Virus record (IMG/VR): IMGVR_UViG_3300042542_001562
Span: 1-37,281 of that record
Origin: a virus
Length of the DNA stretch: 37,281 bases
Direction: 5' to 3' (one strand)
Shown here one piece after another: positions 4,685 through 25,027 of the stretch. The notes beneath the pieces were generated by a model that made no database searches, had not been told where the DNA came from, and saw only the letters and a program-made list of their open reading frames with translations. The position numbers and the translations under genes were made by a program. The number at the start of each line of letters is the position of its first letter. Position 1 is the stretch's first letter.

Positions 4685-4720
4685 ATGAACTAAACTAGTG
4701 CCTTATTAGTGTACCACTAG
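4676..4720. repeat. Cluster of CACTAG/CTAGTG inverted repeats, possible operator
   Basis: Plus-strand hexamers: CACTAG 4676-4681, CTAGTG 4695-4700, TTAGTG 4706-4711 (one mismatch) and CACTAG 4715-4720. They form two inverted pairs with spacers of 13 and 3 nt. The first copy overlaps the predicted -35 element and the last overlaps the stop codon of the amidotransferase gene. The outer pair could also form a small hairpin in RNA. An operator is the simpler reading; no cognate regulator was recognised in the window. Confidence 0.45.
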
Positions 4721-5616
4721 AACGGGATAGCGTCCTGTCCTAGTTTCTTTGTGTGTCCTACCCGCCCATTCGGGTACCCACACTGACATAGTTCAGCAAC
4801 GTTCTCGCAATCAAAGCAAGAGCCACACCAGGTACATGTACCCATGCTCTCCCATAAATCAGCTTCTGATATCCATGCGCTGCAATTAAAACATTCTTGT
4901 ACTTCTAATTCATTATCTGGTTTGTCTTGTTTGATTGTATCTTTGGCTAACTTATTATACCCGCCGCTAGCCCAAGCATACTCATCATCGTAATCACCAT
5001 ACCAACCAGCGTACCGGCCAGTAACATTTGCTGTACCATAGGAATAACCTAAGTTACATGTATCGTTAGACCACCATACACCTGACTCATCTTCTTTGCC
5101 TGACTCAGCATTGAGTAGATACATAGGGTGCTTAGCGGCAGGGTCAATAGTAATGATACATACCTTTGAACCAGATGTATATTCTTGTAGCATATTCCAG
5201 ATGAAGTCATCATCTAGTGCGGTAACCCCACCTAATCTAGGTATTAACTCTTCAGCAAATACTTTAGTATCACTGCGGTCATCTTTATCTGGTATCTCAA
5301 TAGGTAAGATACCGTTATGCCCAAGATAGGTACGGTCATCATGACCTACTGCAAATGGGTGGCAATTCTCTAGTGTGCGAGAACCATGAGTAGCAAACCG
5401 AGCATGCCACATGGCATAGCCATCTTGATAGATAGCACGTTGTGCTAAGAACCTATTGATAGATTCATCTGCGTCCATGCTTTTCTCTACTATGATTCTG
5501 TTCTCACTAGGTACGGCAATGGCAAAGCCAAAGCCATGTGGATTATTTAATGCAGAGTTCTCCAACTTATCTCTTGACGGAGTAACTCCTGGTGGTAGTA
5601 CGCATAACATACACAT
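4717..5616 (-). CDS. Class-II glutamine amidotransferase with C-terminal zinc region
   Basis: The N-terminus reads Met-Cys, so removal of Met exposes Cys2 as the Ntn nucleophile of a GATase class-II domain. Other family motifs follow: HARFATHG 71-78, NCHPF 84-88 and the GHNG loop 99-102. This domain (about 1-190) releases ammonia from glutamine. The C-terminal part has eight Cys (242, 245, 261, 264, 267, 270, 277, 279), probably a pair of zinc sites. No synthetase domain is fused; the partner is the amidoligase gene 2 nt upstream in the same operon. AGAGGA precedes ATG 5616. The pairing with GS-like amidoligases is known for phages and bacteria; the amidated substrate is unknown. Confidence 0.9.
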   Translation of the reverse strand: MCMLCVLPPGVTPSRDKLENSALNNPHGFGFAIAVPSENRIIVEKSMDADESINRFLAQRAIYQDGYAMWHARFATHGSRTLENCHPFAVGHDDRTYLGHNGILPIEIPDKDDRSDTKVFAEELIPRLGGVTALDDDFIWNMLQEYTSGSKVCIITIDPAAKHPMYLLNAESGKEDESGVWWSNDTCNLGYSYGTANVTGRYAGWYGDYDDEYAWASGGYNKLAKDTIKQDKPDNELEVQECFNCSAWISEADLWESMGTCTWCGSCFDCENVAELCQCGYPNGRVGHTKKLGQDAIPF

Positions 5617-5618
5617 GA

Positions 5619-6938
5619 TTAGTCCTCTCTACTCTCATTGTGTGAATCGCTATTGAATGAACGATTGATTGTCTCAAACAAATTAGGATACTTATCGGTA
5701 TTAGAACCGATGTAACCTACATACTTTACCCAAGAGAATGGTTTATCTTTGGGGATTATCTTAAGCTCACGAGTATATTCAACTACTGAATGAACAAACT
5801 CTAAGCCAGATAATATTCTAGGTATATGTAATGAACCCTTAAACACACGAACTTCTAATGTATTATCTGGCTCGACATTAACGGCAGCATACCTACCATT
5901 TGATTGACTCTTGTATTTAACCTTTGGAATAATCTTACCTGCGTCAGAGAAGCTAGCGTAGTTAGAACTACGACCAGCAATCCTCTGTACTTGGCGTTCA
6001 TTATCATAGATTAGTTTAATGAATCTAATCTGATGGTCGTCATCATCGAATGCAGTACGACTTACATGTACGTGCAATCCACAAGTACTAGTATTCCAAG
6101 ACCTGAATCTTAACTTCTTAAGTTCAGTTAGCATAGTCCAAGGAAAATTCTTTTGATACTCTTCAAGTGTATGCGGATGAGTAACAATTTCGAAGCCATT
6201 TGCCAATGAACCATCACTCTTAAGATAGCCACGATACTTGCGATTACGCATTGGATTCATAGCATTATGTGCTAGTTCAGCACCTATTGCATAGTTATCA
6301 TTGGTATCTTCTACCTCTAGTTCAAAGCCAAGGTAGTACTTAGCTTCACCCCAAAATCTAGGGTCAGGTTTATAACTCCAGCTATGCACCCACTCACTGT
6401 AGTTTCGGTTATTATTTTCACAACTATGACCGTTCTCTTCACCAAAACATTCACCGCAATCATCACACTCTATCTCTTGATTGTAACAATCACGGCACCT
6501 GCTATCTTGATGTAACTCAGACCAGTATAAATCGTCTGCGTCACCAAACATTTGATTACATTCATCACATGCAACATAATCAGGATTGTTTTCTTCCCAT
6601 TGTTCTGAACATGATGGGCAGTATAATTTGTTATGAATATAATTCATCTTAACTTTAGGTACACCGCCGGTGTGCCATCCACCCCAACGACTACCTAAAA
6701 AATAGTGATTACATTCATCACATTGTGTAGCACATCTTTTATGACCATAGATTATTTCAAGGCAGTCATTGTCAGAAGATATTCTTGCAGACATTTGTAC
6801 CTTTGAGTATCTATAATTCCAGACGGCGTCAACATCACCTGTTGTGTCTGGCTCTGCATATATGTCATTACATACACCACATACATCTCGTATGGTTTCG
6901 GTAACGACATCACTTGATGTCTCTACTACATCAGGCAT
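5619..6938 (-). CDS. GS-like amidoligase with N-terminal multi-zinc-finger region
   Basis: Residues 200-395 match the putative amidoligase family (glutamine-synthetase fold): YLGFELEVE 202-210, KSDGSL 240-245, GFEIVTHP 248-255, CGLHVHVSR 286-294 and EVRVFKG 362-368 supply the Glu/His/Arg positions expected for ATP, metal and carboxylate binding. Such enzymes join an amine or ammonia to a carboxylate in an ATP-dependent way. Residues 18-175 contain at least eight CxxC-type pairs (for example C20/C23, C73/C76, C107/C110, C124/C127, C148/C151, C158/C161), so several zinc ribbons precede the catalytic domain and may hold the target. AGAAAGGAAA precedes ATG 6938. It is the direct neighbour of its likely ammonia supplier. 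The target could be peptide, wall or another metabolite; unknown. Confidence 0.88.
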   Translation of the reverse strand: MPDVVETSSDVVTETIRDVCGVCNDIYAEPDTTGDVDAVWNYRYSKVQMSARISSDNDCLEIIYGHKRCATQCDECNHYFLGSRWGGWHTGGVPKVKMNYIHNKLYCPSCSEQWEENNPDYVACDECNQMFGDADDLYWSELHQDSRCRDCYNQEIECDDCGECFGEENGHSCENNNRNYSEWVHSWSYKPDPRFWGEAKYYLGFELEVEDTNDNYAIGAELAHNAMNPMRNRKYRGYLKSDGSLANGFEIVTHPHTLEEYQKNFPWTMLTELKKLRFRSWNTSTCGLHVHVSRTAFDDDDHQIRFIKLIYDNERQVQRIAGRSSNYASFSDAGKIIPKVKYKSQSNGRYAAVNVEPDNTLEVRVFKGSLHIPRILSGLEFVHSVVEYTRELKIIPKDKPFSWVKYVGYIGSNTDKYPNLFETINRSFNSDSHNESRED

Positions 6939-9899: not shown

Positions 9900-10031
9900 A
9901 AATGTCAGTCGTAAGTAGTTATGTATCTCTCCCTAAAATTATTTGTGGTTATAGTGACCCTTGCTAAATCAGTACAAAATAGGACATAACGACCTACTTA
10001 GCATAGGTAATAAAAATAGTTGAGAATAAAA

Positions 10032-10126
10032 CGTCCGTTTTACCTGTTTGGACGGATTAGTACTGTATGTAGCAGTAAGTTATTCGCCAGGCTTTTATAT
10101 AGCCTGGCTCATACAGTTACAGTACA
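10032..10126 (+). promoter_or_regulatory. Structured leader of terminase mRNA with alternative stems
   Basis: CGTCC (10032-10036) pairs with GGACG (10050-10054). Further on, ACTGTATG (10062-10069) can pair with CATACAGT (10110-10117), or GTACTGTA (10060-10067) can pair with TACAGTAC (10118-10125); the two 8-bp stems share the same 5' arm and exclude each other. Both enclose GCCAGGC (10086-10092) with GCCTGGC (10102-10108). It ends about 50 nt before the terminase start and could control entry into the late operon. Confidence 0.45.
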
Positions 10127-10175
10127 GGTGACTGACAGACAGTGTAGGACGGCGAAAGACTATCTAAAGGACACC

Positions 10176-12062
10176 ATGACATTCAAGGCGGGCGAAGAGC
10201 ATTTTAAAGTTAAGGCTCTAGCCGAGGCAAAAGCTAAGGTTATAGAGTTAGTGAGCCAAGGTGCTACTACCCACCAAGCTATGAATCTAGCTGGCAAGAA
10301 ACCAGATACGGTTCGTCAGTGGATGGTTAGGGATGCTGACTTTGCAAAGGAGTTAGCCAAGGCTAAGGAACTAGGGGAAACTCTTACTCTAGCCAACCTA
10401 GGGTATGACAAAAAGGATTTACCCTTTGCTGAATTTTCAAAAAATTTTTTAGACCAGACGGTCTTCCCACATCATCAAGACTGGGTCGACCTGTTAGAGG
10501 GACGGGAACCTTCCTGGCTTCACCCTAGTATGATATATGACAAGGCTGATAAGTCTAGGATTCTTATTAACGTGCCACCGGAGCACGCTAAGAGCACGGT
10601 TATTACCGTGAACTACTCAACATACCGTATCGCTCTCGACCCTAATGTTAGAATCATCGTTGTTTCTAAGACACTGATAAAGGCACGAGAATACGTGTAC
10701 GCAATCAAGCAACGTCTCTCACACCCAAGATGGCTTAAGATGCAAAACGCATTTGGTCCTCAAGGTGGGTGGAAAGAAGACGCAGATACTTGGCGAACCG
10801 ATACAGTGTATCTCGGGAGCGATGCTCGTAACTCAAGTGAGAAAGACCCTACCATTCAAGCACTAGGTATGGGTGGGCAGATTTATGGAGCCCGTGCAGA
10901 TTTAATTATTCTTGACGACGTGATAACCACAGCCAACGCCCATGAATGGGAAAAACAACTTAACTGGCTGCAAAAAGAAGTTATCACTCGTCTCGGCAAA
11001 AACGGCAAGCTATTAATAGTGGGGACTAGAATTGCGCCAAGTGACCTATATAAGGAACTTCGTAGTCCTGAGCATTGGTCTGGTGGTAGGTCTCCCTTTA
11101 CTTATATGGGTATGCCTGCTGTACTTGAGTATGATGTTGAGCCAAAAAATTGGGTTACTCTTTGGAAAGAATCAGATGTACCCTGGGATGGCGATACAGA
11201 TACACCACAAGAGAACGGCTTCTATCCCAAGTGGGATGGACAAACATTATTCAAACGTCGTTCCGAGGTTACTCCTACTACGTGGGCTCTTGTCTATCAA
11301 CAAGAAGACGTACAAGAAAACTCTATCTTCCCACCAGCTTTGGTACAGGGAAGCATACTCGGGGCTAGAAGAGTCGGACCTTTAAAGCCAGGAGCATCAG
11401 GTCATCCTAAAAACGTTGAGGGCTACACCATTATTGGTATGGACCCAGCTATTGCCGGACATGCAGCTTTAGTTGCAATAACTTTTAATAGAGCTGATGG
11501 TCGTATCTACGTACTAGATTGCTTGAACATGGCAGAGCCTAGTTACCAAAAGATACGTGATGCTATAGAAGCTATGACCATTAAGTATGCACCCCAAGAA
11601 ATACGAATTGAAATCAACGCATTTCAGAAAGCATTTGAATTAGATGACAGCTTACGACAGTGGCTTGCTGGATACGGCGTACGGCTTAATTCTCACCATA
11701 CAGGAAAAAATAAATGGGACTCGAACTTTGGAGTTGCCTCCATGTCAAGCTTATTCGGAACTACTCAAGACGGTAAGTTTCAAAACAACAACCTCCTTGA
11801 ACTCCCATCAAGTGATGGCTCAGAAGGAATCAAAGCTTTAGTACAGCAGTTAATTACTTGGAAGCCAGACACTAGAGGTAAGACGGACTGTGTTATGGCT
11901 TTGTGGTTTGCAATCATTAGGGCAAGAGAATTGATTCAAAGCGGTACAAGGGTATCACCTTATTTAGATAATAGGTGGGCTACTAGAGCTCAGATGGAAA
12001 AAAGAAACTCAATCAACTTAGACGATGCTTTTAGTGAGCAATGGTCTGAAGTCTACGGATAA
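10176..12062 (+). CDS. terL: Terminase large subunit with N-terminal HTH-like region
   Basis: ATG 10176 is chosen because AAAGGA lies 4 nt upstream; the longer open frame to 10020 has only a TTG and overlies the structured leader. The 628-residue product is the packaging motor: ATPase with a Walker A-like PPEHAKST 134-141, Walker B LIILDD 243-248 and the coupling GTR 283-285; RNase H-like nuclease with D423 (GMDPA), E479 (IEINAFQ) and D571 (TDCVMALWF). Residues 11-62 (VIELVSQGATTHQAMNLAG, then PDTVRQWMVRD) look like a helix-turn-helix of the type found in small terminases. No separate small subunit was seen, so the DNA-recognition role may be fused here. Confidence 0.93.
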   Translation: MTFKAGEEHFKVKALAEAKAKVIELVSQGATTHQAMNLAGKKPDTVRQWMVRDADFAKELAKAKELGETLTLANLGYDKKDLPFAEFSKNFLDQTVFPHHQDWVDLLEGREPSWLHPSMIYDKADKSRILINVPPEHAKSTVITVNYSTYRIALDPNVRIIVVSKTLIKAREYVYAIKQRLSHPRWLKMQNAFGPQGGWKEDADTWRTDTVYLGSDARNSSEKDPTIQALGMGGQIYGARADLIILDDVITTANAHEWEKQLNWLQKEVITRLGKNGKLLIVGTRIAPSDLYKELRSPEHWSGGRSPFTYMGMPAVLEYDVEPKNWVTLWKESDVPWDGDTDTPQENGFYPKWDGQTLFKRRSEVTPTTWALVYQQEDVQENSIFPPALVQGSILGARRVGPLKPGASGHPKNVEGYTIIGMDPAIAGHAALVAITFNRADGRIYVLDCLNMAEPSYQKIRDAIEAMTIKYAPQEIRIEINAFQKAFELDDSLRQWLAGYGVRLNSHHTGKNKWDSNFGVASMSSLFGTTQDGKFQNNNLLELPSSDGSEGIKALVQQLITWKPDTRGKTDCVMALWFAIIRARELIQSGTRVSPYLDNRWATRAQMEKRNSINLDDAFSEQWSEVYG

Positions 12063-13357: not shown

Positions 13358-15133
13358 ATGGCATTAGATATGAGACAGATAACTGCGAGAGTTGACTCTC
13401 TACGTTATCGTTCCACCGAAAGAGATTCTCGTAACCTAGACGTACTTGCTGTTCGTCAAGGAAAAATCTCACAAGTTTATCCTAACTTCTTTCCAGCTGG
13501 TATAGACCAGAACGTAGTAGCTAACTTTATTGATATTGTTGCAAGAGACCTTGCAGAAGTTATGGCTCCACTACCTGCTGTTAACTGCTCAGCAGTAAAT
13601 CAAGTTTCAGATAGAGCACGTCAGTTTGCAGACAAGCGTACAAGAATTGCTGCTAACTATTTCCGCCATTCAGATTTGCAAGTAAATATGTACAACGGTG
13701 CGGACATGTACATAACATATGGTTTCCTTCCTTTCATTGTTGAACTAGATGAAGAAGCAGGATTACCACGGATTAGATTAGAAAATCCTATTGGAGCTTA
13801 TCCAGAGTTTGACCGGTATGGTCGTTGTGTAGCATTTGTAAAACGTTACACCCTTACCTTGGGTGAGCTGGTTAGCCAATTCCCTGAGTTTGAATTCCAA
13901 CTCCTAGGCTCAGAGGGTTACAACCAAAATCTTAATCATCAGATGGAGATGATTCGTTATTACGATAAAGACCAATCAGTTATTTATATACCAGCAAAGA
14001 AAAATTTAGTTCTATCAAAGGCAAGTAATCCTATAGGTAAGATGAATGTAATCGTTGCTAGACGCCCAGGTGTTGATGGTGAACTTCGTGGACAGTTTGA
14101 TGATGTATTAGGAATTCAGTTACTTCGCAATCGTTTTGCTTTGCTTGCAATGGAAGCTGCAGAGAAATCTGTTCAGGCACCAATTGTATTACCAAACGAC
14201 GTACAAGAATTACAATTAGGCGGAGACGCTGTAATTCGTACAAACAATCCAGCAGGTGTTAGACGTGTTGAACTTAATCTCCCACAAGGAGCTTTTACAG
14301 AACAACAACTTCTAAACGAAGAACTACGTGTAGGAGCTCGTTATCCTGAATCACGTACTGGAAATGTTAAGGCTTCAATCATTACTGGCGAAGGTGTTCA
14401 AGCACTACTAGGTGCATTTGATACACAGGTTAAATCAGCACAATCTATATTTACTACAGCATTACGTGATGTTATTTCTCTTTGCTTTGAAGTAGATGAG
14501 AAATTATTTAACGAAGAAAAAACAATTCGTGGTACCGATGCTGGTGCACCTTATGCGGTTACATATACACCTACAAAAGATATCAAGGGTGATTACTCAG
14601 CCGATGTAAGATACGGAATGTTAGCTGGTTTAAACCCAGCACAAGGACTTATCTTCATGCTTCAAGCTCTTGGCGGAAAGCTTATCTCTAAAGATATGGC
14701 TATGCGTGAGTTGCCATTTAACGTCAACGTCACCTTAGAACAAGAGCGCATTGAAACAGAAGATATGCGGGCTGCATTGATTGGTTCATTGCAAGCTTAT
14801 GCACAAGCAATACCTCAAATCGCTGCTCAGGGCGGTGACCCAAGCGACATTGTTAACAAGATAGCTGAAGTCATTAGGCAACGTCAAAAAGGCATAGCAA
14901 TTGAAGATGCCATCAGTGAGGTATTTGCAATCGAGAATCCTCCAGCTGGTGGCGCACCATCGGTCGAGCAGCCGTCCGTCCCCTCTGCTCCCGGCGCTCC
15001 AGTTGGAGGCTCACAACCAGAACAACCAATAGAAGCTCAAGCACAACAAAGACCAGAGTTACAAAGTTTATTAAGTAATTTAAATATGGCTGGAAGAACT
15101 AACGCAAGTGTAAGGACAGTAAACAGAAGATAA
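13358..15133 (+). CDS. Portal protein
   Basis: The 591-residue product, its place two small genes after the terminase, and its sequence layout fit a phage portal: an N-terminal helical region (SLRYRSTERDSRNLDVLAVR), a wing domain with conserved NPIGAYPEFD-type strand, a central GVQALLGAFDTQVKSAQ stretch like the stem and clip region, and a Pro/Gln-rich, probably disordered tail from about residue 535. The portal dodecamer forms the DNA entry channel and docks the terminase. GGGAGA precedes ATG 13358. No motif is catalytic, so the call rests on length, order and general resemblance. Confidence 0.85.
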   Translation: MALDMRQITARVDSLRYRSTERDSRNLDVLAVRQGKISQVYPNFFPAGIDQNVVANFIDIVARDLAEVMAPLPAVNCSAVNQVSDRARQFADKRTRIAANYFRHSDLQVNMYNGADMYITYGFLPFIVELDEEAGLPRIRLENPIGAYPEFDRYGRCVAFVKRYTLTLGELVSQFPEFEFQLLGSEGYNQNLNHQMEMIRYYDKDQSVIYIPAKKNLVLSKASNPIGKMNVIVARRPGVDGELRGQFDDVLGIQLLRNRFALLAMEAAEKSVQAPIVLPNDVQELQLGGDAVIRTNNPAGVRRVELNLPQGAFTEQQLLNEELRVGARYPESRTGNVKASIITGEGVQALLGAFDTQVKSAQSIFTTALRDVISLCFEVDEKLFNEEKTIRGTDAGAPYAVTYTPTKDIKGDYSADVRYGMLAGLNPAQGLIFMLQALGGKLISKDMAMRELPFNVNVTLEQERIETEDMRAALIGSLQAYAQAIPQIAAQGGDPSDIVNKIAEVIRQRQKGIAIEDAISEVFAIENPPAGGAPSVEQPSVPSAPGAPVGGSQPEQPIEAQAQQRPELQSLLSNLNMAGRTNASVRTVNRR

Positions 15134-15145
15134 CTTGGGGGAATA

Positions 15146-15715
15146 GTGACGGCTATTGTTGGAATTCAAGGCAAAGGTTGGGCTGTCCTAGCAGCAGATT
15201 CTATGACTACATATACAGATAGACCGTATGTAGCAAAAGGTTGCGACAAGATAGTTAAAATTGGTGAGTATCTAATTGCAGTAGCAGGTGATGCTATAGC
15301 AGGAGATATCCTTAATAATTTATGGCAACCACCTAAAGTAATTAAGACGCAAGACCCAGATAGATTTATGATGATTAGAGTTTTACCATCTATCAAGCAA
15401 GCATTAAATGAAGCAGGCTATGACCCAACACCTAAGGGCAAGAGCGATGATGATTCTGGCTGGGATGCGTTAATTTGTTTTAATGGAAAGTTATATCAAG
15501 TTAGTGATGACTATGGATATATGCGAGACGATAGAGGATTTTACGGAATTGGTTCAGGCGGTGGACTAGCTCTTGGTGCATTAGTCGCAATGGAAGTTGA
15601 AACTAAGACACATGCTAAAGCAACAAGTGCGGCAAAGAAAGCAGTTAATGCAGCAATCCAATATAATATTTGGTGCGGTGGAACAGTTAATATCAAAACT
15701 CAATTTACTAAGTAG
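15146..15715 (+). CDS. Proteasome beta/HslV-like Ntn-hydrolase, candidate prohead protease
   Basis: The GTG start at 15146 (GGGGG upstream) gives Met-Thr, so Met removal exposes Thr as N-terminal nucleophile as in HslV and proteasome beta subunits. Motifs follow at family spacing: TAIVGIQGKGWAVLAADS with Asp at mature position 17, DKIVKIG with Lys at mature 34, AVAGDAIAGD and the GIGSGGGLALGAL loop. The length of 189 residues fits one beta-type subunit. Such subunits form rings with inward active sites and need an unfoldase partner; none is encoded here. Position between portal and scaffold/capsid genes makes capsid maturation the likely job, replacing the usual serine prohead protease. That role is inference; the fold call is strong. 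Confidence 0.85.
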   Translation: MTAIVGIQGKGWAVLAADSMTTYTDRPYVAKGCDKIVKIGEYLIAVAGDAIAGDILNNLWQPPKVIKTQDPDRFMMIRVLPSIKQALNEAGYDPTPKGKSDDDSGWDALICFNGKLYQVSDDYGYMRDDRGFYGIGSGGGLALGALVAMEVETKTHAKATSAAKKAVNAAIQYNIWCGGTVNIKTQFTK

Positions 15716-15723
15716 GAGTATAA

Positions 15724-16146
15724 ATGGCAAATGGACGTGGCGGATATCGTCAACCTAGTAATCCAGCACCTGTATCAGGTCCAGGCGCTTTGTCAAAGCG
15801 TACTGATGGTGGTGCAACTGAAGGTATGACTCAAGCTCCTAAGTACATGGCTGGAATGAGATACGGCATGGGTGGAAATATGGAACAACAATCTGGTGCT
15901 CCTATGCAAGGGACTGATATACCTTCTACTCCAACTCCTATAGTGCCATTAAGCGCACCTACAAGCCGTCCTGAAGAACCTATTACAGCCGGTGCTGACT
16001 TCGGTGAAGGTCCTGGCTCAGAGGCTTTAATGGGTATGCCATCTCCTCAAATTAATATTACTAACATCCTTAGCAGACTTGCTCAGTATGATGACTCAGG
16101 AGACGCAGAGCTTATCTATCGCAGGTTACTAGATAGCGGTTACTAA
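15724..16146 (+). CDS. Conserved phage head-module protein, 140 aa
   Basis: The first 35 residues (RGGYRQPSNPAPVSGPGALSKRTDGG region) belong to a motif I recall as widespread in aquatic phages beside portal genes; it is Gly/Pro-rich and has no known fold. The middle is Met/Pro/Gly-rich and disordered, the last 35 residues (ITNILSRLAQYDDSGDAELIYRRLLDSG) form a helical end. It may be a small scaffold or head-assembly peptide. AGGAG precedes ATG 15724 and the stop overlaps the next start by one nucleotide. Confidence 0.75.
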   Translation: MANGRGGYRQPSNPAPVSGPGALSKRTDGGATEGMTQAPKYMAGMRYGMGGNMEQQSGAPMQGTDIPSTPTPIVPLSAPTSRPEEPITAGADFGEGPGSEALMGMPSPQINITNILSRLAQYDDSGDAELIYRRLLDSGY

Positions 16147-19100
16147 TGCCTAGACTACCGCGTCCAGTAGTAGCTCAGACATCTCAAGGTCTATATAATG
16201 CAGTTGCTTCAGCTAACCTTTCGCCTGAAGAAGATGGCATGATTACGCAGATGTCTTATGCGTATCAAGAAGGTTTAAGATTAAGTAAACTATCTCCCGA
16301 TAAAGCTAAAGCAGATTTTGATATTTTAAATGATAGTGCTAAAAGAGACGTTAGAGTTCTGTTTCCAAATGAAGAATACTCTAAGCCTGAACAAAGTTTA
16401 TTAGGAAAAGGTTTAAGTGTTGCTGGCAAAATAGCTAATGTTCCTTACAAGTTTTTTGGTTCTCCTTTTCTTGGTACATTCTCAGCTTTAGAAAAATATG
16501 GTAAGACACTTAATACGCCAGCTCGTGTAGCATTTCAAGCTACAACTTTAGACAAGCCTTTGTTTTCTCAAAACACTTGGTCAGATGCTTATAAAGGTAA
16601 AGATTTTTATAATCCAAATGATGTTAAGAATCTTGAAGAGAAATATGGTAGAGCTAATGCCGCAGTTGCAATGGGTATTGCTGCTGCTAAAACTCCAGGT
16701 GAGATTATTAAAGACTGGGGCAAGGTAGATGCAGAGATAACTCAAGCACTTGCTGATTCATTAGATGACCCAGATAAGTTTGAACCTATTCTTAAAGAAA
16801 CAAAATTAGCAAGATTTTCTCCTGGTCGTTCAATTATACGTATGGTATATGATGAACAACATCCAGTACTTTCAACAATATGGTTCTCTGCCTTTGGCAG
16901 ACCAATGGAAGTTCCTGGTCAATCTCCAGAAGTTAAAGCTGCAAATGCAGCCTATAAAGCCAATGTAATGGCTAAGCAATCTGGAACTATTGACGCTATT
17001 TATCAAGTGATAATTTCTCCTGATACTTACCTAACCATGGGTCTTAGTAAGATACCTTTAATTGGTTCTAGGTTAGCTGGAGCTGCTGTCGCAAGAGGAG
17101 CCGATGAGGCTGGCTTTCTTGTTGCCGGACAAGGTAATAAAGGTAGAGTATTAGCTAATAAAATATTAGCGGCTAAACCAGAGGAACTAAACCTTACCGT
17201 TCGTGAGACTTTTCAAAGACCAGATGTATTTGGCTTGTGGCAAAATGAAGTTGGTCCAGTAGTTAAAGCATTTACTGAGGCTAAGGATAACACAGCTAAG
17301 GCAGAAATATTTAGAAATTTTAGAATTACTTATCCAGAATTCAATGACCTTGCAGTATTTAAACTGTATTCTAAAAACAATGTATTTGATGCAGCATCTG
17401 CTGAGAAGTTTTTTACTACCGCAGATAATGCAAGATATTTAATAGGCGGAAGATTAGACGGTACTACTTTTTATCGCAATGGTGTAGCTACTGCACGTGC
17501 ATCTCGTCAATTCACATCAGGAATTGCTCGTAAGGTAGACGCAATATTTAATCCAACAATAGGAAATATTGCTGCCAGAGATACCCTTGAAAAGGCTACT
17601 GCTGCACATGAACGTGGTTGGGAAATCCTTACACGTTTAGGTGAAGAAGCTGATTTGGGAGTTAACCCAAACATAACAAAACTTATAGACATTGAAAACG
17701 ATATGTCTAAAACACGTAAATTAGCATTTAAAATAGGCACAGCAGCTGGCAGAAGTCCTACTAGTAGTGGTATTAGATATGGCGATGACGCCATTGAGAC
17801 TGTTTCTGAGTTTAGAAACATGGCTGCATTAGTAGTAGATAGAGATTTTGCAGATACATGGGCATTAAACTATTTAGATTTAGATTCTGCTCAACAAGTA
17901 GTAGCTATTCGTAACCTTTATGCTGCATATTTTCAGAAACAAGGCTTTGAAGGATTACCTGGCGGTAAAAACTACACGCAAAAAATATTAGACAGAACAT
18001 TTAATCATCATGCTGGCTTCGGTGTTACCTCTAAGGTGGAAATACGTAGAGATTTAGCGGACATGATGGACCCTAGTGCTATTGAATATGAAAATGGTAT
18101 TCCGTATTTAAGAAACCGTGGTATTACTCATGGATTCCAAGCGGCTGGAATGATTGCTCCATTACCTTTTGAAGAGATTGCTGCTACAAAAGCAATGCTT
18201 GGTATGAAAGACCAGGCTGGTCACTTTACTTTAAGAAATGGCATACCTTCTCTGTTTGATGGCATGCATAGAAACTATTTTATGCGTGCAGTTACTGATA
18301 CTTGGGCTGTTCTTACCCTAGGTATTCGTCAAGGTCTACGAACTTCTATAGACCACTTCACGTTTTATGCATTTACTGCTCCTGGCGACGCTATTAAAGA
18401 CTTTGCAGTTGGAGAATCAAGAAAACTAGGCAAGGTTCTTACTGTTGCTACTGGTTCTAAGGCAGCTGTTGGTCCATATAAGCGTTTGTTTAACAAACTG
18501 TTTCTTAATGGTGGTTTAGAGCAACGTCTTACCAAGGGTGACCGATTAGAGATTGTAAAAGACTTACAAAAAGAAATGTCTGAAAAGCTTGGGTACGATG
18601 TACCGATGCAAGAAGTTAGCAATGTTTTAATTAGACAAGAATCTGGTAAGCGTGCTTGGGATATTCTATTCAAGGGCCAAACCGATGAAGCTCAACAAGA
18701 CATTATGGATTTATTAGTATATCAACCAGATACTATCGATGCAATGCAAAGAGCCGTTAGCGCAAAATCAAACTTAAGCGGTAGATTTGATGATGAGGTT
18801 AGAAATCTAACCCTTCCTGAGTCTAATGTAACTAGAGCGGTTGAAGATGTTGGTTTGAAATTAGGCAGGAAGTGGAAACCTATTTCCACTAGAGAACTTG
18901 CTCAACTAAATCAACAGTATCCAGCATTAGCACACTATGATAACTGGGCATTGCGTTTTGCATTTAATAGAATTCAACTTGCTGAGTATAAATCTTTTAG
19001 TCCTGTATCAGCATTTTTTATGCACAATGGATTAAGAGATACCAAGGATATTGAGAGAGCTAGACAATCTATCCTTAAACAAGTTGGTGTTAATTACTAT

Positions 19101-22004
19101 TCAGAAGAAGACCAAGCTATCCAACTAGCTAATAGGACTATCAATTCTGGTGGAGCATCAGGCGCAGATACAGTATTTGGTCGCGAAGGTGCAGTATTTG
19201 GAATGAATGTTAAGGCTCATTCATTTGATGGCCATAAGATTCAACCTGGTTCTGGTACTCAAGTTATTCATACACAGCAAGAGCTTGAAATTGCTGATGA
19301 CTTAATGAAAACTGTAAATGAAAAATATTTAAAGAGAGCGTTTCCTCCGACCAATAAATATGTAGCTAATTTATTGCGTAGAAATTACTATCAAGTAAAA
19401 GATTCTGAGGCTGTTGTTGCTATAGGTCGTATTGATAATAATGTCGTTCAAGGTGGAACAGCCTGGGCTGTCTATGCTGGTATTGAACTTAATAAACCAG
19501 TTCATGTATTTGATATGAATGTCAATAAATGGTTTACATGGGCAGATGGTGCTTGGTCACAATCAGATACGATTCCTGCTTATAGAAATTTTGCTGGTAT
19601 TGGTAGTAGAGATATATCTCCAGCTGGTACAAGAGCAGTTAAAGAGTATTTAACCAATATGTCTCTTATTAAGCCTGGTATATCATTAAAGGTTTTTGAT
19701 GTAGATTTACTAAGACGTTTTGTTACCAAGTTTGGTGATACAGTTGCATTTCGTGAAAGAGGTTTAACTGACGAACAAGTATCTCTTATTCTTGTAGATA
19801 ACATGTTGGCTGATATGCAGGTTGCTTTCCATGGCGGAGCTAATTCCTATAATCAAGAGCTAATGAACCTAGTTAAAGAAAAACATTTTGATATTACAGA
19901 AGCAGCAGCTAGACGTTCTAAGCGTATCCCATCTGATGCATGGGAAAAATCTGTATCTAGTATTGAGTTTTCTGACTTTGAAAAGGTTACGGTTAACATG
20001 CACCCAAGTGGTGAGATTAACACACGTATTGATTTCCTTAATGAAGATATGGAAGGAAACTTTAGGAAGTTTGGCAATGCTATTTATGAGCAAGCAGACC
20101 GTCAAGCAACTGGTTTGTTTAGCCAACCAGTCTTAGTCTATACATACAAAACCTTGCGTCAATCTTATAGAAACCAAGAGAAACTATTTGCTAAACAACA
20201 AGAGGCTAGGCTTATAGAACAAGACCCATTCAATAGTAAAGCTAAAGAAATTGCTACTGATTTGGCACGTAAAAGATATGCTGAAATAGCGCATAATGAT
20301 GCTATATATACAATATTAAAGTACATAGATAACCCTGCTATTAGAAGCAATTTCTCTATGTCTGTTAGACACGTAGGCAGATTCTATCGTGCAACTGAAG
20401 ACTTCTATCGTCGTTACTATCGTATGTTACGTGATAAGCCACTTCAAACTGCGTATCGCATGCGGTTATTACATCAAGGTCTACAGTCTTCTGGCAGTGT
20501 ACACAAAGACCAAGACGGTGTCGAGTACTTTATCTTCCCAACAGATACGGTTATCAATGGTGCAATTGAGCCAGTAGTACGTAAACTATCTGGTAACAAT
20601 CAATTTAAAGTACCTCAATTTGATAACTTTAAAATGAAATTACAGATGCTTAACCCATCTTTCTCACCTGATGCTGGTATACCTACCTTCTCTGCACCTG
20701 CTGCTTCGGTAACCATACTTGCAATAGATGGATTATTGGGTAAGTATGGTAATGCTTTTACGTCTAACTTAGGCGAGAGTTTTAAGCAAGCCACACTAGG
20801 TAGCTTTGGCGAAACCATGAGTTTCCGCAGTGCTGTTATCCCTATGTATGTTGAGAATGCTATTAGATTAAGCAAGCCAGCACAGGAGATTCTTGGTATT
20901 ACTGATATAGAACACAAGACTCGTGAAGAGAAGAGCGCTGCTATGCAGGCTATCTCTTACATGCAGGCATACGGTAATCAACCATTACCAGAGAATCCTA
21001 CACCTCAAGAGCGTAATGATTACTTAAAAGCAATAAGTATATCAACAAGCAACTTACTGTTTATGCGTGGTTTCTTAGGTATGTTCTCACCTGTATCTGC
21101 ATCTTTACAAGAGAGCAAAGGTGTTCCAGATTATTACAAGCAGATTGGTATAACCAGTCTACGTAATGAATTCTATGACATATTAGATGGCATAAAGCAG
21201 ACATATGGTACTGATATTCAAGATGCTTATGCCCTTGCTACTGCTATCTTTGTGGCTAATAACCCAAAGAAGAGTATCTACTTAGCTTCTCGAAACGATA
21301 AGCAAACAAGTATTCTAATTAACAAGACTCAACAGGTTAAAGACTGGGCTCTAAGTAATAAAGACTTTATAGATACTTATGGCGAGACTGCTTATATCTT
21401 TGCACCAAAGGTAGGAGACTTTAATCCTGCAGTATATAACTGGTTGGAGTCACAAGACCTACTGGGTCAGCCTGACTTAGAAGTATACCTAGAAAGAGTG
21501 CTAGTAGCAGAGGATAAAGCTGCTTACTTTAATATTGCTAATAAGGAAAAAGAAGCTTTGGCTAATACTACTAGTATCAGTCAACGTCAAGCTATTATCA
21601 ATAATGCAACAAGAAGTCGTCAGACTTTGTTGAACTCTAATCCATATTTACTGGAAGCCTTACAAAGTAAGAATAGTTTTCCTTCAGAGAAGATAATGTT
21701 AGACAACCTATCTACATTACTATCTGATGAAAACACCCCTATACCTGATATTACACGGGTTAAAATGAGGGCGGCAGTTAATGAGGTTCAAGGGTTTATA
21801 GCACTTGCTACTGACCAAGAATACAAATCATCACCTTACTTTGTCGATTCTAAACGTATAAGAAAAGCTGAGATTGAAAAACTTATTGAAGATTTAAGGA
21901 CTGGAGACCTTGTTATGACTGAAGCGTACAGAGCTGTATTACAGCCAATACTTGATTTCTATTCACGGGATACATATGTAGCATTCAGAAAGGCTAACTA
22001 CTAA
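16146..22004 (+). CDS. Giant virion protein, 1952 aa, with embedded SLOG-like domain
   Basis: One continuous frame of nearly 5.9 kb, mostly helical and Ala/Lys/Asp-rich, resembling the large internal or ejected proteins of podoviruses. Residues about 990-1185 differ: NSGGASGAD at 1000-1008, KDSEAVVAIG, VVQGGTAWAVYAGIELNKPVHVFD and FAGIGSRDIS at 1150-1158 are the signature pieces of SLOG/YpsA-DprA-type nucleotide-binding domains, here in circularly permuted order (GIGSR after the GGAxGAD loop). SLOG domains bind nucleotides or NAD-related ligands. No lysozyme or polymerase motif was recognised elsewhere. There is no tape-measure gene, so delivery into the host with DNA is plausible. The start overlaps the previous gene by one nucleotide. 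Confidence 0.8.
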   Translation: MPRLPRPVVAQTSQGLYNAVASANLSPEEDGMITQMSYAYQEGLRLSKLSPDKAKADFDILNDSAKRDVRVLFPNEEYSKPEQSLLGKGLSVAGKIANVPYKFFGSPFLGTFSALEKYGKTLNTPARVAFQATTLDKPLFSQNTWSDAYKGKDFYNPNDVKNLEEKYGRANAAVAMGIAAAKTPGEIIKDWGKVDAEITQALADSLDDPDKFEPILKETKLARFSPGRSIIRMVYDEQHPVLSTIWFSAFGRPMEVPGQSPEVKAANAAYKANVMAKQSGTIDAIYQVIISPDTYLTMGLSKIPLIGSRLAGAAVARGADEAGFLVAGQGNKGRVLANKILAAKPEELNLTVRETFQRPDVFGLWQNEVGPVVKAFTEAKDNTAKAEIFRNFRITYPEFNDLAVFKLYSKNNVFDAASAEKFFTTADNARYLIGGRLDGTTFYRNGVATARASRQFTSGIARKVDAIFNPTIGNIAARDTLEKATAAHERGWEILTRLGEEADLGVNPNITKLIDIENDMSKTRKLAFKIGTAAGRSPTSSGIRYGDDAIETVSEFRNMAALVVDRDFADTWALNYLDLDSAQQVVAIRNLYAAYFQKQGFEGLPGGKNYTQKILDRTFNHHAGFGVTSKVEIRRDLADMMDPSAIEYENGIPYLRNRGITHGFQAAGMIAPLPFEEIAATKAMLGMKDQAGHFTLRNGIPSLFDGMHRNYFMRAVTDTWAVLTLGIRQGLRTSIDHFTFYAFTAPGDAIKDFAVGESRKLGKVLTVATGSKAAVGPYKRLFNKLFLNGGLEQRLTKGDRLEIVKDLQKEMSEKLGYDVPMQEVSNVLIRQESGKRAWDILFKGQTDEAQQDIMDLLVYQPDTIDAMQRAVSAKSNLSGRFDDEVRNLTLPESNVTRAVEDVGLKLGRKWKPISTRELAQLNQQYPALAHYDNWALRFAFNRIQLAEYKSFSPVSAFFMHNGLRDTKDIERARQSILKQVGVNYYSEEDQAIQLANRTINSGGASGADTVFGREGAVFGMNVKAHSFDGHKIQPGSGTQVIHTQQELEIADDLMKTVNEKYLKRAFPPTNKYVANLLRRNYYQVKDSEAVVAIGRIDNNVVQGGTAWAVYAGIELNKPVHVFDMNVNKWFTWADGAWSQSDTIPAYRNFAGIGSRDISPAGTRAVKEYLTNMSLIKPGISLKVFDVDLLRRFVTKFGDTVAFRERGLTDEQVSLILVDNMLADMQVAFHGGANSYNQELMNLVKEKHFDITEAAARRSKRIPSDAWEKSVSSIEFSDFEKVTVNMHPSGEINTRIDFLNEDMEGNFRKFGNAIYEQADRQATGLFSQPVLVYTYKTLRQSYRNQEKLFAKQQEARLIEQDPFNSKAKEIATDLARKRYAEIAHNDAIYTILKYIDNPAIRSNFSMSVRHVGRFYRATEDFYRRYYRMLRDKPLQTAYRMRLLHQGLQSSGSVHKDQDGVEYFIFPTDTVINGAIEPVVRKLSGNNQFKVPQFDNFKMKLQMLNPSFSPDAGIPTFSAPAASVTILAIDGLLGKYGNAFTSNLGESFKQATLGSFGETMSFRSAVIPMYVENAIRLSKPAQEILGITDIEHKTREEKSAAMQAISYMQAYGNQPLPENPTPQERNDYLKAISISTSNLLFMRGFLGMFSPVSASLQESKGVPDYYKQIGITSLRNEFYDILDGIKQTYGTDIQDAYALATAIFVANNPKKSIYLASRNDKQTSILINKTQQVKDWALSNKDFIDTYGETAYIFAPKVGDFNPAVYNWLESQDLLGQPDLEVYLERVLVAEDKAAYFNIANKEKEALANTTSISQRQAIINNATRSRQTLLNSNPYLLEALQSKNSFPSEKIMLDNLSTLLSDENTPIPDITRVKMRAAVNEVQGFIALATDQEYKSSPYFVDSKRIRKAEIEKLIEDLRTGDLVMTEAYRAVLQPILDFYSRDTYVAFRKANY

Positions 22005-24429: not shown

Positions 24430-24550
24430 ATAGAATCCTATGTGAATCCATCGGCCTCACATAGCGTACTAGACCGATAGCAAGAGCCAGACCGATTCCC
24501 CGATTGGAACCTGAGGCTTGCGACTACAACGAATAGAAGGGTGGGTTGCT
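24430..24550 (+). promoter_or_regulatory. Non-coding leader before the scaffold-capsid genes
   Basis: A 121-nt gap with CTATGTGA (24438-24445) pairing with TCACATAG (24457-24464), 8 bp, and a direct repeat AGACCGAT at 24471-24478 and 24489-24496 that can pair with ATCGG near 24450. It may hold a separate promoter, an RNA-processing site or a stabilising leader raising capsid expression. No clear sigma70 promoter was found. Confidence 0.45.
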
Positions 24551-25027
24551 ATGAGCAACAACTACTGGGATGAAGACGAAGACGACCAAGATACCGACAA
24601 CGAAACACAGTTGGATGGAAGCGATTTACTTAAAAAATTGCGGAAAGCCAAGCGTAACGATGAAAAGCGTATTAAGGAACTTACTGAGCAACTTGAGGGA
24701 TTATCCAAGTCGCAGCGTGAGCGTATAGTCAAAGATGTCCTAGACAAGAAGGGTGTCAATCCAAAGGCACAACGCTTAATCCTTAAAGACTTAGAAGACG
24801 TTAACGAAGAGTCAGTTAATAACTGGCTTGATGATAACGGCGACTTGTTTGGATTAACAAAGGAGCCTGAGGTAAACCAAGAACAAGAACTTAATCGAGC
24901 AGCCTTACGGCAGCAAGATGTAGTTACTCAGTTGGGTACGACCCCTGACAAAGCCCAAGACTTATTGAACAGAGTTATGAATGCGGCTAACGCAGAAGAA
25001 CTTACTCAACTAATTCAAGGCAATTAA
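24551..25027 (+). CDS. Scaffolding protein
   Basis: ATG 24551 is chosen over a TTG-type start further up because AAGGGTGGG lies just upstream. The 158-residue product is highly charged: acidic head (WDEDEDDQDTDNE), a long coiled-coil (LLKKLRKAKRNDEKRIKELTEQLE) and a helical C-terminus (TTPDKAQDLLNRVMNAANAEEL). This composition and its place directly before the major capsid gene are typical of phage scaffolds, which guide capsid assembly and are then removed, here perhaps by the Ntn-hydrolase. Confidence 0.8.
   Translation: MSNNYWDEDEDDQDTDNETQLDGSDLLKKLRKAKRNDEKRIKELTEQLEGLSKSQRERIVKDVLDKKGVNPKAQRLILKDLEDVNEESVNNWLDDNGDLFGLTKEPEVNQEQELNRAALRQQDVVTQLGTTPDKAQDLLNRVMNAANAEELTQLIQGN

Follow-up and report, generated by a model that had tools for sequence, protein, structure and literature searches.

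The window (the whole 37,281-nucleotide stretch analysed, IMG/VR record IMGVR_UViG_3300042542_001562) is a tailed-phage genome with a G+C content of 41%, in which replication genes on the minus strand are followed by genes for TerL, the portal, a putative Ntn hydrolase, a small protein (p8200), a giant protein, a protein in scaffold position and an N4-gp56 capsid (Table 1). The Ntn hydrolase ORF is real, as the initial annotation had it, its product beginning Met-Thr, and its start codon lies 12 nt past the portal stop. It had been described as lying between the portal and scaffold/capsid genes; it does adjoin the portal gene, but the next gene is that of p8200, and the scaffold position and the capsid gene are ∼9 kb downstream. 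Within the giant protein, residues 996–1133 form a DprA-like stretch (phrog_768, 4.8e-11), the remainder being unmatched. The TerL ORF (10020–12062, plus strand) has a small-terminase-like stretch at residues ∼67–123 (PF20901, 0.0026; phrog_1482, 0.00027), perhaps a fused TerS-like domain.

Table 1. Features of the window around the Ntn hydrolase gene and in the head gene block
Feature	Coordinates	Strand	Remarks
Portal protein, upstream neighbour of the Ntn gene in slot A	13358..15133	+	phrog_104, 2.3e-25
Plausible ribosome-binding site, GGGGG	15137..15141	+	4 nt 5' of the GTG; sequence reading
Ntn hydrolase (proteasome/BPH/HslV-like) ORF	15146..15715	+	GTG start, 189 aa; Thr2 = mature Thr1
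140-aa protein p8200, function unknown, downstream neighbour in slot A	15724..16146	+	phrog_8200, 2.2e-17
Giant 1952-aa protein	16146..22004	+	type does not follow Ntn type
169-aa protein, scaffold position; candidate substrate if the Ntn hydrolase is a prohead protease	24518..25027	+	phrog_7813, 8.3e-31 (unknown function); position as annotated scaffold in Dennebes
Major capsid protein, N4-gp56 family, 317 aa	25065..26018	+	TIGR04387, 106 bits, cut-off 60

The ORF matches the Pfam Proteasome family PF00227 (E 3.3e-7; 30.6 bits against a curated cut-off of 22.4) and belongs with phrog_1040, "peptidase HslV family" (E 1.1e-27), a label that is silent on function and position. Sequence matches in the PDB include proteasome beta (2.8e-6) and the betaproteobacterial protein BPH (2.2e-5), and an 11-row profile (A2) ranks BPH first (2.6e-13), then a mixture of HslV and BPH, then proteasome beta. 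An AlphaFold2 model built from 15 sequences (the window and viral contigs) has a mean pLDDT of 87.8 and a pTM of 0.86 and contains the proteasome-type sandwich fold; its top Foldseek matches are BPH (1.4e-11), and a second structure aligner places it on BPH structure 5ovs with Z 19.2 and rmsd 3.1 over 174 residues, a score with which many proteasome betas tie. The family and fold checks thus uphold the proteasome/HslV-like Ntn hydrolase of the initial annotation. The NCBIfam equivalog cut-offs for HslV are missed by a wide margin (19.5–19.7 bits against 137–157.75), as is that of the archaeal-type 20S proteasome beta (TIGR03634, 33.8 bits against 224). In sequence and predicted fold the protein is closest to BPH and HslV.

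The catalytic set expected of this family, much of which the initial annotation had pointed out in proteasome-type order, is complete: Thr2, Asp18 (mature position 17), Lys35 in the motif DKIVKI, and G136-S-G-G. An alignment of 53 distinct proteins and the window shows no variation at M1, T2, D18, K35, G136 and G138 in any of its 54 rows, and the active-site residues are kept in 15/15 and 11/11 rows of two further alignments; S137, the Ser129-type residue, varies (Ser in 41 rows, Ala in eight and Thr in five). Pairwise dN/dS (NG86) has a median of 0.10 and a maximum of 0.23 over 848 pairs. These sequence data indicate a maintained enzyme that is probably active. In each of the 15 rows of alignment A1 the loop at residues 92–106 has an acidic net charge, with four to five acidic against one to two basic residues.

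Proteasome homologues of phages are a kind already known, so that novelty was overstated by the initial annotation, which had called a threonine protease ring in capsid maturation or scaffold removal without an ATPase partner unusual. Three of them, PPH, AAH and CPH, were named by Fuchs, Alva and Lupas (2021, PMC8665760); like the present protein they are Group I proteasome-like proteins in phages. They are reported to have no co-occurring AAA+ partner and no informative gene context, and no Actinobacteria-specific phages were found carrying AAH. PPH is described there as having ∼140 residues and lacking helix H2, whereas the window protein has 189 and has the H2 region (helices 50–58 and 71–89 in the AlphaFold2 model), which excludes membership of PPH; membership of AAH is possible. 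BPH (5ovs, 5ovt, 5ovu), the best Foldseek and profile match, offers the closest comparison. The BPH paper (PMC5777263) describes removal of the initial Met, the chemistry of Thr1, an acidic loop in the pore and no known unfoldase, with inactivity on the model substrates tried. A tetradecameric double ring with an epoxomicin-reactive Thr1 is a further mark of BPH. The window protein shares the Met-Thr start, the Thr1/Asp17/Lys33-type/Gly47 set, the acidic loop and the lack of a known AAA+ partner, but it is only ∼23% identical, is phage-borne and is known here from its sequence and predicted fold. With HslV it shares the fold and the order of motifs, but its acidic loop is longer. The label BPH is given to such a gene in a passage of a marine phage paper, and the text of Kavagutti (2023) lists degradation of host proteins among annotated genes and says nothing further on it.

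The window record contains a single proteasome-like match and no separate alpha subunit. Pfam models recognized no HslU or other unfoldase partner among the 29 window ORFs scanned (a mechanical list holds 67 ORFs of at least 70 aa), in agreement with the earlier remark on a ring without an ATPase partner, and no further protease family among the same 29, as had been said of a serine prohead protease.

Three positions of the gene can be distinguished in related phages: after the portal (slot A), after the capsid (slot B) and at the opening of an early replication/WhiB block (slot C). Eighty loci were kept from 494 IMG/VR relatives. A portal gene lies on the same stretch in 46, and in every one of these the Ntn gene is directly 3' of it. 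No portal is shown at 34 loci, four of which end too early for the next gene to be scored; in the 30 with enough contig a Cas4-like exonuclease always lies 3' of the Ntn gene (within 400 bp in 27 and at 448 bp in three, of which one is truncated where the contig stops). Thirteen such loci viewed in detail have lysis-type genes upstream, usually with a divergent small ORF, and downstream the Cas4-like exonuclease, a WhiB-like protein and a DnaB-like helicase, named by sequence reading and from the Pfam names of window counterparts; a WhiB-like gene was not found in the window itself.

How regularly the gene is carried was counted in a census of every record of at least 36 kb from the p8200 and capsid scans, in which the Ntn protein was not the query (n = 19). 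It is present as a single copy in 18, in slot A in 14 (G001, G003, G004, G005 and G031–G040), in slot B in one (G012, after the capsid and two small genes) and in slot C in three (G015, G017 and G018). The nineteenth, G021 (43 kb), is a distant relative with a portal 24% identical. All 10 large records that came from the capsid scan have slot A filled. By search set, the protein was matched in 15/16 records of one and 20/30 of the other, some of the 30 having been picked for carrying it. Apart from G021, the records without a match are 14–32 kb long and may be fragments (G010, G011, G013, G014, G016, G019, G020, G022 and G029; G045 is 30 kb). A second match in G038 (1.5e-4, 84 residues, inside a 1643-aa frame) was taken as chance.

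The portal and p8200 genes occur with no Ntn gene on the stretch in 50/75 loci, from which the gene might be taken for a dispensable moron. This was rejected: four large records without it at that place (G012, G015, G017 and G018) hold it elsewhere, and we read the gene as near-universal but movable. The gap between portal and p8200 in Ntn-less loci contains other ORFs only, mostly <100 aa; several unlike kinds of small ORF are seen there (e.g. L095–L103 and L121–L158), which suggests that the gap is a general site of insertion. In a tree of 74 sequences, which gives no direction of change and has long branches flagged, place needs three changes and slot C falls on two separately supported branches. 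The Ntn gene has no fixed tie to the head genes.

Exchange of the gene on its own is visible at the nucleotide level. Two early-block loci, L041 and L076, encode Ntn proteins 87% and 85% identical to that of the window, and when the full window is compared with the 11.6 kb of L041 by BLASTN, the sole match is 15145–15719, which is the Ntn ORF. Between L009 and L026 a 602-bp block of 89% identity covers the Ntn gene between flanks of 66%; their Ntn proteins are ∼95% identical and their portals 56%. The L009 protein has a relative score of 0.91 to that of the window, with no giant-protein similarity. L094, with a 93%-identical portal and a 28%-identical Ntn protein, was also considered as an Ntn-only swap, which is ruled out: p8200 (68%) and the giant protein (26–34%) differ too, and the exchange there was therefore larger than one gene.

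Slot A is occupied by the window type of allele and by several types ∼28–37% identical to it. Window-type copies are 81–100% identical to the window in the Ntn protein and 57–100% in the portal, so that the Ntn protein changes more slowly than the portal. Over all pairs, Ntn identity correlates with portal identity (Spearman 0.54) and giant-protein identity (0.51), as expected because the phages are related. As judged from these comparisons, the Ntn alleles track neither the portal nor the giant protein.

The nearest cultured or named relatives of the window are OX376640.1 and OX376641.1 (Caudovirales sp. ct2KA10), which appear to be the Planktophila phages LanE43AprE7 (E7) and F5, F5 by inference. 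They are like the window in portal (74–76%) and major capsid protein (78%) and in having the Ntn gene beside the portal, but their Ntn allele is only about 28–32% identical. Beephvirinae, podoviruses of Streptomyces, have the TerL-portal-giant-scaffold-capsid module in the same order (portal 42–44% and capsid 50–53% identical among the matches listed), with the Ntn gene found only on the window side of the comparison. Three whole Beephvirinae records searched with a profile gave no match, and a tblastn search (E 0.01) of 50,697 phage records, with five matching records overall, included no Streptomyces phage. Scanning genome contigs with the window protein gave no bacterial relatives.

The initial annotation saw in the gene a stand-in for a prohead protease, that is, a late enzyme that would trim or remove the scaffold, or process the portal, giant or other virion proteins. 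Several observations suit such an assembly protease: its preference among large records for slot A (14/18, with one more after the capsid), its retention in nearly all of them, and the want of another protease family among the 29 scanned ORFs. A prohead protease would, however, be expected to stay with the head genes and to be present wherever their module is; this gene has three positions, including the early block in two lineages, and alleles independent of portal and giant protein, and the three Beephvirinae records manage the same module without it. In XacN1, D'Alembert and DSL-LC01 the homologues are not among the head genes (that of DSL-LC01 is beside an annotated WhiB gene), and in D'Alembert a head maturation protease is annotated separately, next to the portal. 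The Immanuel3 capsid gene of 963 nt encodes 320 aa against 317 in the window, and with lengths so alike no extra prosegment is evident. Ntn moves too freely in the genome to be simply a shell-maturing enzyme. The head function is weakened and a dedicated assembly protease appears unlikely, although a late assembly role is possible.

The hosts offer a second line of evidence. Phages E7 and F5 lyse the Nanopelagicales strain LanE-43 (PMC10202952). From kinship with them, we infer for the window phage a host among the Nanopelagicales, bacteria that are very common in lakes. PF00227 was matched in 0/10 genomes comprising LanE-43 and nine more (10 of 17 listed; search controls positive in 10/14), and across the order of LanE-43 147/151 genomes are without a match. 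The four exceptions (G084, G109, G159 and G183) each have two neighbouring proteasome-family genes and, at 1.8–1.9 Mb, are larger than most of the order; both of those that were included in the search for Mpa carry it too. We read the absence elsewhere as loss with streamlining. The phages thus bring in a protein family that is missing from most of their presumed hosts. Streptomyces, the hosts of the Ntn-less Beephvirinae, have a 20S proteasome, which fits this reading as a single contrast.

The same genomes bear on whether the protein could be a borrowed HslV-like partner of a host unfoldase (ClpX, FtsH, Lon or Mpa-type). Its predicted HslV-like fold would allow this, and ClpX-sized relatives (∼430 aa) occur under the HslU cut-off in the host order. 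HslU itself, however, was above cut-off in 0/41 genomes of the order and Mpa in 2/61, and the acidic loop speaks for BPH more than for HslV; we regard a host partner of this kind as very improbable. A viral partner was also sought in the gene of a second Ntn-fold enzyme (class II glutamine amidotransferase-like, Met-Cys start; 4717–5616, minus strand), directly 3' of an Amidoligase_2 gene (5619–6938, minus strand). A tagging system of the two feeding the protease was rejected, the amidoligase being found in only 11/24 related or compared records; since E7 has the Ntn gene and no amidoligase, the latter is not an obligate partner.

We favour, at a probability of roughly 0.58, an intact and maintained BPH-like threonine protease, probably independent of an unfoldase, that is brought into a host lacking the family and acts in the infected cell rather than as a dedicated prohead protease. 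Host Met aminopeptidase would expose Thr1, and the subunits would assemble into a BPH-like barrel, its inner loop acidic, a form suggested by the likeness to BPH and the net acidic loop at 92–106. Such a barrel could do without an AAA+ unfoldase, taking chains that are unfolded or folded only loosely, and might act in the cytoplasm on host or phage proteins, in takeover, counter-defence or clearance, at a time set by gene position. A gene in the early block should be expressed early, before capsids exist, and one in slot A late; a task that serves both would more probably be cytoplasmic than lie in prohead maturation. Against this reading count the position of slots A and B inside the head block and the filling of slot A in every large record of the capsid scan, which fit late expression and some assembly role, as well as the reported inactivity of BPH on model substrates, a host assigned through relatives and a window in which no WhiB-like gene was found.

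A narrower form of this proposal makes the protein a counter-defence or superinfection-exclusion enzyme with a host-varying target, strongly diverged alleles being swapped as targets change. Several alleles 28–37% identical in one slot and precise transfer of a single gene are what such a role might leave behind, but within one allele type selection is strongly purifying (dN/dS 0.10), with no sign there of an arms race, and no defence target is known, so that a generic clearing enzyme fits equally; we think this version improbable. Less doubtful, and still tentative, is the proposal that the unfoldase-independent barrel is a near-obligatory takeover enzyme of freshwater Nanopelagicales phages, carried as a precise cassette among strongly diverged alleles and three positions, as its targets would be host proteins or defences and not the capsid; on this view the phages would supply a viral proteasome to cells that lost the family.

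In the literature covered, subscription journals being mostly outside its scope, we met no description of a movable, single-copy gene of this kind in actinophages whose hosts nearly lack the family. Since 2021 phage proteasome homologues have been listed without function or telling context; here the context yields testable facts, in that almost every large related record has one copy, the gene changes place irrespective of the head genes, and the order of the known host is nearly free of the family. With the cultured pair of E7 or F5 and LanE-43, the role of a viral proteasome-type protease could be learned in a cell that itself lacks such an enzyme.
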